Source of the DNA: Gemmatimonadota bacterium
Lineage (GTDB): Bacteria > Gemmatimonadota > Gemmatimonadetes > Gemmatimonadales > Gemmatimonadaceae
Assembly (NCBI GenBank): GCA_027307165.1
Contig: DAHUXM010000022.1
Coordinates: 1 to 35,307, forward strand
Direction of reading: 5' to 3'
DNA length: 35,307 nt
Part shown: in pieces, positions 12,626 through 23,648 of the stretch
How the letters are laid out: every line of letters starts with the position of its first letter
Position numbering within the stretch: position 1 is the stretch's first letter
Program-made: the position numbers and the translations under genes
Notes under the pieces: model-generated
What the model saw: only the letters and a program-made list of their open reading frames with translations
Databases searched by the model: none
What the model was told of the DNA's origin: nothing

Positions 12626-13121
12626 ATGAAACTGACCGCAGGCGCTGTGGCGCCGGATTTCGAGCTCGAGAGTACCGCGGGCACCGTGTCACTCGCCGGA
12701 CTGCGTGGCTCGCGAGTGGTGCTCTACTTCTATCCAAAAGATGACACGCCCGGTTGCACGCCGCGAGGCATGCTCATTCCGCGACAGCATGAGCCGGCTC
12801 CAGGGTCACGGCGCCACGATACTTGGCGTCTCCAGAGACTCGATCGATTCGCATCACCGCTTTCGCGAGAAGTACGGCCTTCCGTTCGCACTCGCGTCGG
12901 ATCCCGACAACACCGTGGCAAAGGACTACGGAGCCTTCGGGAAGAAGATGATGTACGGCAAGGAGGTCACGGGGGCCATCCGCTCCACGTTCCTCATCGA
13001 TCCACAGGGACGCATCGAGCGAGTGTGGTCACCGGTGAAAGTCGACGGACACGTGGATCAGATACTCGCTGCACTCGATGGAACTGCTCCATCGGCGAGT
13101 GGAGAGAAGCCGATACAGTGA
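12626..13121 (+). pseudogene. bcp: Peroxiredoxin of the BCP/PrxQ type, interrupted by a +1 frameshift
   Basis: The first frame reads MKLTAGAVAPDFELESTAGT and on to YFYPKDDTPGCT, the BCP active site with the peroxidatic Cys. After codon ACG near 12760 the next frame continues with REACSFRDSMSRLQGHGATI, including the resolving Cys four residues on (C-X4-C). It carries on through GVSRDSIDSHHRFREKYGLP, FALASDPDNTVAKDYGAFGK and FLIDPQGRIERVWSPV to a stop at 13121. Removing one base in 12761-12763 restores a full ~164-residue thioredoxin-fold peroxidase. No slippery heptamer is present, so this is either a real frameshift mutation or a sequencing or assembly error. BCP proteins reduce peroxides using thioredoxin. 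It stands alone, convergent with the FMN-barrel gene. Confidence 0.88.
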
Positions 13122-13195
13122 AGCTCAGTCGCACCCCGTGCGCGGCGTCGCCTCCAACGCTCGGCATCGGCCGCACGGTGGACTGAGCAGTAGCG

Positions 13196-15581: not shown

Positions 15582-17579
15582 TCACGGCTTTCTTCGCGCC
15601 TTCACATCGTTCGCCGTAATCCTTTTGCTGTTGTTTCCCCACGATGATCGTTCGTGGTTGATGATGTCTGCGATCTGTGTGTTGTTCAACAGACCGCTGA
15701 ATGGCGGCATCGCGCCCGGATAAACCGTACCGCCGATGTTCTGTCCCTGCAGTCCGTGCAACACAACGTCGATCTGCTTGCCCGGATCGGCGTCCAACAC
15801 GACGAGATTACCCTTGAGCGGCGGGTATGCACCCGGTATCCCCATGCCGGTAGTCTGATGGCATGCGGAGCACGTGGTTGCGAACGCCGCGGCGCCTCGC
15901 GCTGGATCGTAACTATACGGGCCCGGCGGCTCCGGAGGCGCGGAGCTCGCGACGGCCGTCGTTGTGTCGAGCGCCGGCGTCGCGGCGACGGGAGCAGCGA
16001 CTCTCGACGAGCCGACCGGGCGAACTTCGATGACGCCGAGTGCACCGACCATCAAGTGCGCCATGTCGTGATCGACGAAGGCGTACTTGCCAGGCTTGGG
16101 AATCACCACATCGAATACGGCCCCCGCACCGGGCCCGACGCTGTACGTGGAGACGCCGCTCAGTGCATGCGACGCATCCCCATCGGGATAGACCTTGTCG
16201 AACATGGAACCGATGACGTGAAACGAAGTCCACAGGTTCGGGCCGCCGTCGATAAGGTAGATGCGAATGCGATCGCCCGCGATCGCGACGAGTGGACGGT
16301 CGCGGTACTGGAACGCGACGCCGTTGAAGACCACTTCATCGGGGCGCTCGGCCAGCATCCGGTCGTAGTTCGCGGTCATGAGATGTCCGGATGCCTGCTG
16401 CGTGTACCACTCGCTCTGCAGGATCACGAAACTCTCGTTCGCAGGTGGAAGCGGAGTCGCCGGGTCCACGATCAATGCGCCGTACATTCCGTTCCCGACA
16501 TGCAACAGAATCGGTTGCGTCTCGCAGTGGTAGATGAACGCGCCAGCCACGTTCGCAACAAATGAGAACTTGAGCGACTTGTTCGGCTCGATGTCGATGT
16601 AATTGAGATTCGGTTCTGTCTGGGCGGCATGAAAGTCGATGGAATGCTTCATGTTGCCGTGATTGGTGACCGTCACGTTTACCGTCTGTCCCTGGCGCAC
16701 GTGAATGATCGGACCGGGGACGGTGCCGTTGTATGTCCACGCCTGATACTCGACGCCGTTCGCGATGGTAACCGATTCATCCGTGACGACAAGATGCAGA
16801 TCGACGCTGTTGCCGGTACCGAGAAGCGGCGGCAGGTGTGCATCGCGAGCCTTGGCGATCGGTTCCTGCGAGGCGAGCGAGAGAGGTGACACGGCGGCAG
16901 CTGCAGCGCCAGGGGATGGCGACCTCACGTTGAACGCGCTGCGCAGGCCGCCGATCAGCATCACGAGCAGAGCGAGAACGCCCAGCATGGCAAAGATCTG
17001 AATGCGCCATGGAAGACGCTCGGGTTCGGACGCGAGCGCATCCGCCGTTCCCCACTCTGCGAACCGGCGCCAGCGCGGCCACCGATTCTCGATGTGATAG
17101 TCCAGACTGTAGGGGCTGCGTCCGCCGCGGCTGTTGATGGCGATGAGTGCGACGAAGATCAGCACGTAACTGATCGCAGTGCCCATGTTGGTCGCACCGA
17201 CAGTGTACGGCCCGCCGAATCCTTCGGCGGTGCTCCAGATCAGTAGACTGAACAGGCCGCCCACGACGTAGAGGACCTTGCGCGCGAATCCCGTGAGCAA
17301 CGCCACGGCGATCGCGGTTTCAATGATGCGCGTAAGCCACGTGAAGAGGAGGGCGTGCGGCGTGACCAGAGCGATCCACATCGAGAACCAGCCGGCCAGC
17401 CAGGCAGGCTGCCCCTGTGCGGCATTGTGCAGATAGCCTACATAATGAACCGCGAATTCCGGTGACCACGTCAGCGCCGCACCAACCGCCCATACGACAC
17501 CGAAGGCTACGCGCAGCCCTGCGGCAGCTACAGCCGGCCAGGTCCTGTGCGTGTGTACGTCAATTTGCGTTTGTGACAT
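15582..17579 (-). CDS. DoxX-like membrane domain / copper nitrite reductase (NirK-type) / cytochrome c fusion
   Basis: 665 residues in three parts. (1) Residues ~15-150: four hydrophobic helices of DoxX/DoxD type, plus a fifth helix at ~193-212. (2) Residues ~255-520: two cupredoxin domains of the NirK type. All ligand positions are present: type 1 Cu His312, Cys352, His360, Met365 (MKHS, YHCETQPILLHVGNGM); type 2 Cu His317, His351, His504; catalytic Asp315 (SIDFH) and His454 (SFHVIG). (3) Residues ~558-650: class I cytochrome c with CSACH (570-574) and Met624 (GAMPPF). The expected reaction is nitrite to NO with electrons delivered by the fused heme, membrane-anchored through the DoxX part. 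A quinol-linked or other oxidase role cannot be excluded. GGAG precedes the ATG. No nor or nos genes are in view. Confidence 0.9.
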   Translation of the reverse strand: MSQTQIDVHTHRTWPAVAAAGLRVAFGVVWAVGAALTWSPEFAVHYVGYLHNAAQGQPAWLAGWFSMWIALVTPHALLFTWLTRIIETAIAVALLTGFARKVLYVVGGLFSLLIWSTAEGFGGPYTVGATNMGTAISYVLIFVALIAINSRGGRSPYSLDYHIENRWPRWRRFAEWGTADALASEPERLPWRIQIFAMLGVLALLVMLIGGLRSAFNVRSPSPGAAAAAVSPLSLASQEPIAKARDAHLPPLLGTGNSVDLHLVVTDESVTIANGVEYQAWTYNGTVPGPIIHVRQGQTVNVTVTNHGNMKHSIDFHAAQTEPNLNYIDIEPNKSLKFSFVANVAGAFIYHCETQPILLHVGNGMYGALIVDPATPLPPANESFVILQSEWYTQQASGHLMTANYDRMLAERPDEVVFNGVAFQYRDRPLVAIAGDRIRIYLIDGGPNLWTSFHVIGSMFDKVYPDGDASHALSGVSTYSVGPGAGAVFDVVIPKPGKYAFVDHDMAHLMVGALGVIEVRPVGSSRVAAPVAATPALDTTTAVASSAPPEPPGPYSYDPARGAAAFATTCSACHQTTGMGIPGAYPPLKGNLVVLDADPGKQIDVVLHGLQGQNIGGTVYPGAMPPFSGLLNNTQIADIINHERSSWGNNSKRITANDVKARRKP

Positions 17580-22721: not shown

Positions 22722-22790
22722 GTCCTGCAATTCCTTGACGGACGCACCTGCGACTCGCAGCTTTCCTCCTCCCAAACAATGAGGTTGGAG

Positions 22791-23648
22791 ATGCGCGGAC
22801 TGGTCTGTGGCACCGTAGCGTTTGTCGGAGTGCTGGGTTGTGCTGCCTCTTCCCCTCCATCAACTGGAAACTCCAGCGCGACCAGCGCGACCAAACCTAC
22901 CAGCGAACCGGCCCTCGTCCGCGTCGTGGCTCACGACTTCGCCTTCGACAGCGCGCATAGCGTGCCGGCGGGGCTCGTCGCCATTCGCTTCGTAAACGAT
23001 GGTCGCGCCATCCACATGCTCGGCATCGCGCGTCTGGACTCCGGCAAGACTGTGCCGGACGTGTATCAGGCACTCGTCAAGAATGGATCGCTGGATTGGT
23101 TCAATGAGGTGGGTGGGCCAGGCGCCGTCTCACCCGGGGATAGCGTGACGCAGTACGCGGTGCTCGAGCCAGGCAGCTATTCGATGATCTGCTGGTGGCC
23201 CGACTCTACCGGCAAGGCGCACGTGATGCTCGGAATGATGTCGACGCTCACGGTGACTGGCGAGACTGCAGGTGCCCCGATCGAGCCGACTCCCGACATT
23301 TACCTTCGGGAGCGCGACTACCACATCGCCGCGACGGGTGCATTCACCGCCGGACACCATGTGTTTCGAGTGGACAACGATGGACCGCAGCATCACGATG
23401 TTGCACTCCTGCGAGTACTTCCGGGGAAGACCGACGCCGAAGTAGACAAGTGGCTCATGAACCCCAGCGTGAGCAATCCGCCCGTTGAAGCAGTTGGCGG
23501 CACGGTTGGCATCGCGCGATGGGGGCATACCGAATTTGCGGCCGATCTCAAACCCGGGAGTTATCTCATGCTCTGCCTGATCCCCGACGCGAAGGATCGC
23601 AAGCCGCACTTCATGCACGGGATGGTGACGAAGGTATCGGTGACGTAA
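22791..23648 (+). CDS. Lipoprotein with two cupredoxin-like domains
   Basis: 285 residues. MRGLVCGTVAFVGVLGCAAS has a lipobox VLGC (Cys17), so it is a predicted lipid-anchored periplasmic or surface protein. Two cupredoxin-like domains each show a type 1 copper set. Domain 1 has His75 (AIHMLG), Cys134, His144 and Met149 (MICWWPDSTGKAHVMLGM). Domain 2 has His201/202 (QHHDVAL), Cys262, His273 and Met278 (LMLCLIPDAKDRKPHFMHGM). This suggests two copper centres for electron transfer or copper binding. The chosen ATG has GAGG 6 bases upstream; an ATG 12 bases earlier lacks a site. It could partner the NirK-type fusion functionally, though it lies 5 kb away and is not in its operon. Confidence 0.82.
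   Translation: MRGLVCGTVAFVGVLGCAASSPPSTGNSSATSATKPTSEPALVRVVAHDFAFDSAHSVPAGLVAIRFVNDGRAIHMLGIARLDSGKTVPDVYQALVKNGSLDWFNEVGGPGAVSPGDSVTQYAVLEPGSYSMICWWPDSTGKAHVMLGMMSTLTVTGETAGAPIEPTPDIYLRERDYHIAATGAFTAGHHVFRVDNDGPQHHDVALLRVLPGKTDAEVDKWLMNPSVSNPPVEAVGGTVGIARWGHTEFAADLKPGSYLMLCLIPDAKDRKPHFMHGMVTKVSVT

Follow-up and report, generated by a model that had tools for sequence, protein, structure and literature searches.

A DoxX–NirK–cytochrome c fusion protein from Gemmatimonadota: a predicted membrane-bound copper nitrite reductase and the possible role of its DoxX domain

Copper nitrite reductase (NirK) opens the gas-forming stage of denitrification; most descriptions present it as soluble in the periplasm and supplied with electrons by azurin or a cytochrome. 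The window considered here (the whole stretch of DNA analysed, 35,307 nucleotides from the draft genome of a soil bacterium of the Gemmatimonadota) contains a gene in which a DoxX-type membrane domain, a NirK core and a cytochrome c follow one another, in that order, in one polypeptide. Proteins with all three parts are called tripartite below. The locus raises two questions, namely whether such a protein is a nitrite reductase and what a domain of the DoxX family does at its N-terminus. An earlier note on this DNA had described the three-part architecture and suggested that electrons taken at the membrane pass through heme to copper, with a quinol or sulfur link provided by the DoxX part.

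The gene and its copper and heme sites

The open reading frame lies on the minus strand, a point absent from the earlier note, with its ATG at 17579 and its stop codon at 15582–15584; plus-strand frame 1 of the same interval contains several stops. Orthologous reading frames in two genomes of the same genus encode 664–666 residues, and the gene is under strong purifying selection (whole-gene dN/dS 0.06–0.08 within the genus). The predicted full-length model has five transmembrane (TM) helices, at residues 14–37, 59–96, 100–119, 133–152 and 191–216, followed by a two-cupredoxin core and a C-terminal cytochrome. Model and sequence matches together bear out the layout given in the earlier note, including its four-helix N-terminal domain with an additional fifth helix. 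This fifth helix probably stands for the N-terminal anchor or signal of NirK, because alignments with ordinary NirKs extend back to residues 184–204, into the fifth-helix region. The features are collected in Table 1.

Table 1. Features of the fusion gene, in window coordinates
Feature	Position	Strand	Basis
Whole gene, 665 aa	15582..17579	-	Open reading frame; same-genus orthologues of 664–666 aa
DoxX domain, aa 14–152, four TM helices	17124..17540	-	Model and homology
Arg-rich cytoplasmic segment (predicted), aa 153–190, family motif YSLDY	17010..17123	-	Alignment, charge topology
Fifth TM helix, aa 191–213	16941..17009	-	Model; alignments
NirK two-cupredoxin core, aa 256–520	16020..16814	-	Sequence and fold match
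HSIDFH: type 1 His312, catalytic Asp315, type 2 His317	16629..16646	-	62/62 conserved
Type 2 His351; type 1 Cys352, His360, Met365	16485..16529	-	62/62 conserved
Catalytic His454 and pocket Ile456	16212..16220	-	His in 61/61
Type 2 His504	16068..16070	-	61/61
Ala/Pro-rich linker, aa 521–555, without Ralstonia-type Tyr gate	15915..16019	-	Alignment
Cytochrome c domain, aa 556–663	15591..15914	-	Domain and homology matches
Heme motif CSACH, aa 570–574	15858..15872	-	49/49 tripartite proteins
Axial Met624	15708..15710	-	49/49 tripartite proteins

The ligands of both copper sites, reported as intact in the earlier note, are indeed invariant. The type 1 ligands His312, Cys352, His360 and Met365 are kept in all 62 aligned fusion proteins, as are the type 2 ligands His317 and His351 and the catalytic Asp315; type 2 His504 and catalytic His454 are present in each of the 61 complete ones, and Ile456 is the pocket isoleucine. 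The numbering of Asp315, His454 and Met624 was likewise correct, and the CxxCH motif (CSACH) and axial methionine of the proposed cytochrome occur in every one of 49 tripartite proteins. Chance occurrence of these ligands was considered and rejected, the copper ligands being invariant across the aligned complete fusions and the heme ligands across the tripartite ones. In NirK trimers the type 2 site lies between subunits, with the histidine equivalent to His504 supplied across the interface.

The core (residues 256–520) matches the NirK model TIGR02376 with an E value of 5.8e-55 and 186.9 bits, below NCBI's curated cut-off of 296.3 bits, and members of the DoxX–NirK clade score 182–208 bits; this cut-off is a naming threshold, not a biochemical feature. 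The best match in the PDB to residues 258–663 is the NirK–cytochrome c of Ralstonia pickettii (E about 2e-72), and in fold comparison with solved NirKs the core reaches Z scores of 26–28.6, with an rmsd of 2.2–3.1 Å over about 260–275 residues. Judged by ligands, fold and homology, the case that the protein is an NO-forming copper nitrite reductase is strong.

In its copper and catalytic ligands and its C-terminal CxxCH/Met cytochrome the protein resembles RpNiR (PDB 3ziy, 4ax3 and 6qpv) and Pseudoalteromonas PhNiR (2zoo), with 31–35% aligned identity, but neither of these has the DoxX domain that the window protein carries. The linker also differs. The Tyr-gate motif (YSGKQ..VY) is found in four of four classical NirK–cytochrome c controls and is absent from the window protein; among 49 tripartite proteins no tyrosine is common in residues 521–554, and Tyr555 is conserved in all 49. 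A 2026 paper describes Tyr323 as conserved throughout the CuNiRs that bear a cytochrome c extension (PMC13324648); as read from its aligned sequences, the DoxX–NirK–cytochrome lineage is an exception to this universal gate. The modelled linker has a pLDDT of about 30, and superposition of both domains on RpNiR gives an rmsd of 15 Å in a monomer model with uncertain cytochrome placement; the modelled cytochrome sits elsewhere than in RpNiR, at a place of which the model is itself unsure. In RpNiR the heme lies about 10.6 Å from the type 1 copper of the neighbouring subunit. The genome from which the window comes (G000) also encodes a stand-alone lipoprotein cytochrome c (L003, 1435–2013, contig C10), 51% identical to the cytochrome tail, which is possibly an electron partner or a relative of the tail's source.

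Ordinary two-domain NirKs of the phylum, such as that at L002, share 41–49% core identity and the same copper ligands with the fusion; L002 has neither DoxX nor cytochrome, and sits in a NosZ-bearing region with regulators. No nearer relative of the core than these was found outside the fusion clade. The NirKs of Hyphomicrobium denitrificans and Bradyrhizobium (2dv6 and 6the, among the best fold matches) are also N-terminally extended, by a cupredoxin or heme-cupredoxin and not a membrane domain. A full-text literature search, with subscription papers and supplements outside its range, found no fusion of DoxX or DoxD with nirK or nitrite reductase. A large NirK survey defines 17 clades (PMC10999283); no mention of DoxX or of an N-terminal membrane domain was found in its main text, and the word 'transmembrane' is absent. 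The architecture is a real and widespread variant of NirK, and apparently an undescribed one.

Distribution and origin of the fusion

A scan covered bacterial and archaeal genomes, and the counts given here are those among the best 80 loci. Complete tripartite proteins number 46, of which one (L018) belongs to the window's own lineage; a further 13 are DoxX–NirK proteins without the cytochrome (bipartite; one truncated), 14 are stand-alone DoxX proteins, and some other loci are broken by contig ends. Tripartite hosts are mostly Pseudomonadota; among the hosts are Rhodanobacter, Frateuria, Castellaniella, Comamonas, Paraburkholderia, Beijerinckiaceae and HdN1, whose genome is complete. The bipartite form occurs in Verrucomicrobiota, Chloroflexota, Thermomicrobiota and Myxococcota. 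The distribution is patchy, over many unrelated bacteria. In Rhodanobacteraceae 10 of 117 genomes have the domain; a search of 395 Gemmatimonadota genomes found it in three of the four genomes searched from the window's genus and in no other. Viral contigs gave a single chance match, to a phage gene (L014). No gene neighbours are conserved beside the fused genes, the clusters seen reflecting close relatives only; together with the recurrence across phyla, this is as expected of a self-contained unit.

In an unrooted tree of 94 NirK cores, in which RpNiR is represented by its Azoarcus and Gemmatimonadota counterparts, all DoxX-fused proteins form one clade (support 99), and the tripartite proteins form one clade within it (98). 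The classical NirK–cytochrome c proteins of Azoarcus and other Gemmatimonadota are placed far away (99). Because the tripartite and classical clades lie apart, the tree has the cytochrome tail of NirK arising at least twice, here independently of the Ralstonia type. The window protein nests among Pseudomonadota, beside a protein from a Rhodanobacter metagenome-assembled genome (99), and for this reason the gene probably reached the window's genus by lateral transfer. Its GC3 (0.75) is like that of its neighbours (0.71–0.79), so the transfer would not have been very recent, or the donor was of similar composition. Elsewhere in the window genome (L005, 1498–1592; contig C26, about 179.04–179.14 kb) there is a remnant of 95 bp that matches the final 31 codons and the stop of the fusion gene at 85% identity, near a contig end and within about 1.2 kb of a transposase-like reading frame; it appears to be the trace of a second, decayed copy.

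The DoxX domain and the entry of electrons

Neither the N-terminal 214 residues nor the full protein matches DoxX in Pfam, even at an E value of 10, and the window protein has no match to Pfam DoxD; a Pfam gathering score is, it should be noted, a detection threshold, and it is superseded here by profile comparison. In tblastn searches the N-terminus matched a protein from Thioclava annotated as 'DoxX family membrane protein' (32.5%, E 8e-19), one encoded on a Mycobacterium plasmid (38%, E 1e-23) and, in Acidithiobacillus caldus, a protein with tandem DoxX domains (E 2e-9). Of 41 relatives in the alignment, fourteen match PF07681 (DoxX) at E ≤ 1, the best at 2.1e-5, and hhalign against Pfam-supported DoxX/DoxD proteins gave 96.8% and 97.3% (E 2.4e-10 and 2.5e-11), compared with 0.1% (E 0.48) for a control, the unrelated DsbD membrane family. 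Since some of the relatives match PF07681 and the profile–profile comparison is positive with a negative control, the earlier assignment of these helices to the DoxX family stands, and is confirmed at the level of sequence profiles. A search of PDB sequences with a profile of the DoxX alignment returned nothing at E 10, and no Foldseek match to the modelled DoxX domain reached significance (best E 1.1). In a VIA fold comparison the best match was NACHO, an assembly factor (Z 9.8), with vitamin K carboxylase (GGCX, Z 7.0), a VKOR-like protein (Z 5.6) and sigma-2 also matched, all below the level that the tool regards as safe for helical bundles; the modelled resemblance to GGCX and the VKOR-like protein is a weak hint of quinone binding.

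The four helices are common to stand-alone DoxX-family proteins (PF07681, DoxD PF04173, MauE, and the Mycobacterium and Thioclava plasmid relatives), and stand-alone relatives also share an Arg in TM1, a Glu in TM2, a G..R turn after TM2 and an (F/Y)S(V/L)D motif. They differ in having Ala and Asp at the positions of Arg84 and Asn131, which are fixed in all fused copies, and Thr37 of the tripartite proteins replaces a lysine (Lys37) that is invariant in ordinary DoxX/DoxD. Because Asp33, Lys37 and Asp131, charged residues typical of stand-alone relatives, are replaced in tripartite proteins, the ancestral DoxX activity may have been lost there. Bona fide DoxD is a single branch of a mostly uncharacterised family (PMC6704655).

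Several observations concern the stand-alone relatives themselves. Of the 14, one belongs to a cluster with NrfD and ferredoxin genes; five or six have DsbD-type and AhpC/TSA genes nearby. In an actinobacterial cluster (L087, 5256–11212), which is possibly a respiratory module, a stand-alone DoxX relative is accompanied by a membrane subunit of the NrfD kind, a 4Fe-4S protein and another DoxX-like protein. At L084, L085, L089, L092, L094 and L097 (Actinomycetota and similar) the DsbD-type and AhpC/TSA genes are a few kb away, a neighbourhood that recalls MauE with its thiol redox partners. On an Acidithiobacillus caldus megaplasmid (L017, 3905–4894), a 329-aa 'hypothetical' protein is made up of a tandem pair of domains from the same DoxX branch.

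Loop charges support a predicted topology in which the N-terminus is cytoplasmic and the NirK core and cytochrome are on the periplasmic side, since they follow the positive-inside pattern: the mean number of Lys and Arg is 1.9 in the short TM2–TM3 loop and 5.5 between TM4 and TM5, compared with 0.4 and 0.0 in the two loops on the periplasmic side. No other part of the protein is as constrained as the DoxX domain. The dN/dS of this domain within the genus is 0.03 (NirK 0.056, cytochrome 0.079), and its mean identity among tripartite proteins is 0.73 (NirK core 0.71, cytochrome 0.66, linker 0.35). Near-invariant positions, with the same residue in 60 or more of the 62 proteins, make up 18 of 42 in the periplasmic loops, 7 of 47 in the cytoplasmic loops and 2 of 23 in TM5. 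The strong constraint, and the concentration of invariant residues in the predicted periplasmic loops, argue against a mere anchor; the domain looks like a site adapted to the periplasmic domains, and for the same reasons entry of electrons at the membrane through DoxX is plausible. The aligned fusions have no conserved pair of heme-ligand histidines in this domain and no conserved cysteine for a redox cofactor, so any electron handling would have to use bound quinol. NrfD-type membrane subunits are a precedent for a cofactor-free quinol site that feeds a periplasmic centre.

We consider the chances to be about even that the protein reduces nitrite to NO as a membrane-bound enzyme and that its DoxX domain offers a periplasmic site, beside the heme, for quinol or a quinol-linked partner. 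In such an enzyme the chain would run from a cytoplasmic N-terminus through the four DoxX helices, the positively charged cytoplasmic segment and the fifth helix to the NirK core and cytochrome in the periplasm, the core presumably being trimeric as in other NirKs. The conserved periplasm-facing DoxX site would take quinol, or dock a quinol-linked partner, and feed the tethered heme, freeing the enzyme from soluble azurin or cytochrome. Electrons would then pass from heme c to the type 1 copper and on to the type 2 copper, where Asp315 and His454 would protonate nitrite and from which NO would leave. The absence of the heme from the 13 bipartite proteins counts against this reading, since a heme relay would then not be essential to the lineage.

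The alternative that fares best, which we think somewhat less probable but a serious competitor, is that DoxX is only an anchor, a folding aid or a localiser (for example, one that keeps NO production beside NO reductase), and that a soluble cytochrome or cupredoxin reduced by bc1 or alternative complex III feeds the heme. The want of conserved cofactor ligands and the loss of family-typical charged residues would fit this, as would a best fold match that is an assembly factor; the 51%-identical lipoprotein cytochrome in the same genome is a potential carrier, and ordinary NirK–cytochrome c proteins function without DoxX (PMC13324648). However, a domain of this kind would hardly be expected to be more constrained than the catalytic core; TM5, a plain anchor helix, has few near-invariant positions and already suffices to anchor the protein. 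Returning to the reading with a periplasmic DoxX site, its most speculative element is quinol as the direct donor. A single-polypeptide quinol:nitrite oxidoreductase, in which DoxX, itself free of cofactors, would oxidise quinol on the periplasmic side and pass electrons to the tethered heme (tripartite) or the type 1 copper (bipartite), bypassing bc1 and soluble carriers, is a tentative and rather unlikely proposal.

Host physiology and the remaining alternatives

The window genome has a second, ordinary and intact two-domain NirK (L002). Its NosZ is of clade II type (906 bits) and lies on a contig other than that of the fusion; NirK and a nosZ-nosDFY-like cluster (L002 and L129–L130, contig C7, about 102–127 kb) are about 22 kb apart. 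A search for the oxidase/NO-reductase superfamily gave two strong COX1-family matches, both cytochrome oxidase-like by score, and no NO reductase is evident in this 98%-complete genome. Of the 14 genomes to which the loci led, 10 have a canonical NirK above the cut-off in addition to the fusion. No full NirK other than the fusion, and no NirS, was found in Rhodanobacter glycinis MO64 or Rhodanobacter sp. C06; HdN1 and Comamonas badia have no other NirK and, besides the fusion, a strong match to cytochrome cd1. G055, a genome of the window's genus, has no NirK match apart from the fusion. The 14 genomes are mostly drafts, and absences of NirK or NirS are provisional. FNR/DNR-like boxes with up to two mismatches lie upstream of 14 of 59 fused genes, compared with 1.8 in simple shuffles, which is no more than suggestive; the window copy has none close upstream. 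A perfect box, TTGATCGAAATCAA, is found at -84 at L038.

These host data bear on the idea that the protein is not a nitrite reductase in vivo, being instead a two-domain multicopper oxidase-like enzyme with another substrate, or serving NO/nitrite detoxification rather than respiration. The score under the TIGR02376 cut-off could be taken in this sense, and so could the canonical NirK alongside in 10 of 14 genomes and in the window genome, or the cytochrome cd1 match in the two hosts without another NirK. Yet the full NirK signature (proton-relay Asp and His, pocket Ile) is near-invariant, the clade is placed among NirKs, and no second NirK was found in the two Rhodanobacter isolates or in G055; we regard the idea as improbable. 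Less probable still is a sulfur-linked enzyme, in which DoxX would act as the DoxD of thiosulfate:quinone oxidoreductase and couple thiosulfate oxidation to nitrite reduction. The family resemblance of DoxD and DoxX and a Thioclava relative that adjoins rhodanese and DsrE genes might suggest it, but most DoxX proteins are not DoxD (PMC6704655), and the thiosulfate link drawn in the earlier note is not supported, there being no Pfam DoxD match, a threonine in place of the family's invariant lysine in tripartite proteins, and no sulfur genes conserved beside the fused genes. An assembly or annotation artefact joining two adjacent genes, conceivable in that the window spans an entire 35-kb contig of a draft assembly, has a negligible probability and is refuted by the recurrence of the same in-frame design in 46 other genomes, among them the complete chromosome of HdN1, and by the 664–666-aa orthologues in the genus.

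Rhodanobacter is dominant in acid, nitrate-polluted groundwater (PMC8809349), and a laterally spread NirK lineage tied to the membrane by DoxX in this genus would change the electron accounting in denitrification. Surveys that depend on thresholds may miss or misname the lineage, which scores about 100 bits under NCBI's NirK cut-off. For the DoxX family, which is poorly understood, the fusion offers a function that can be tested, and DoxX domains would gain a defined respiratory role if the quinol:nitrite oxidoreductase proposal is true. The lineage also represents a second, independent origin of the NirK–cytochrome fusion, without the Tyr gate thought to be common to all.

Two other genes in the window may be mentioned. 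On the plus strand at 12626–13186, a Bcp-like peroxiredoxin is spread over two overlapping frames (from 12626 on, then 12705–13121), as if frameshifted. At 22779–23648, also on the plus strand, a 289-aa lipoprotein consists of two repeats that resemble cupredoxins, and both repeats contain a possible Cys/His/Met copper motif.
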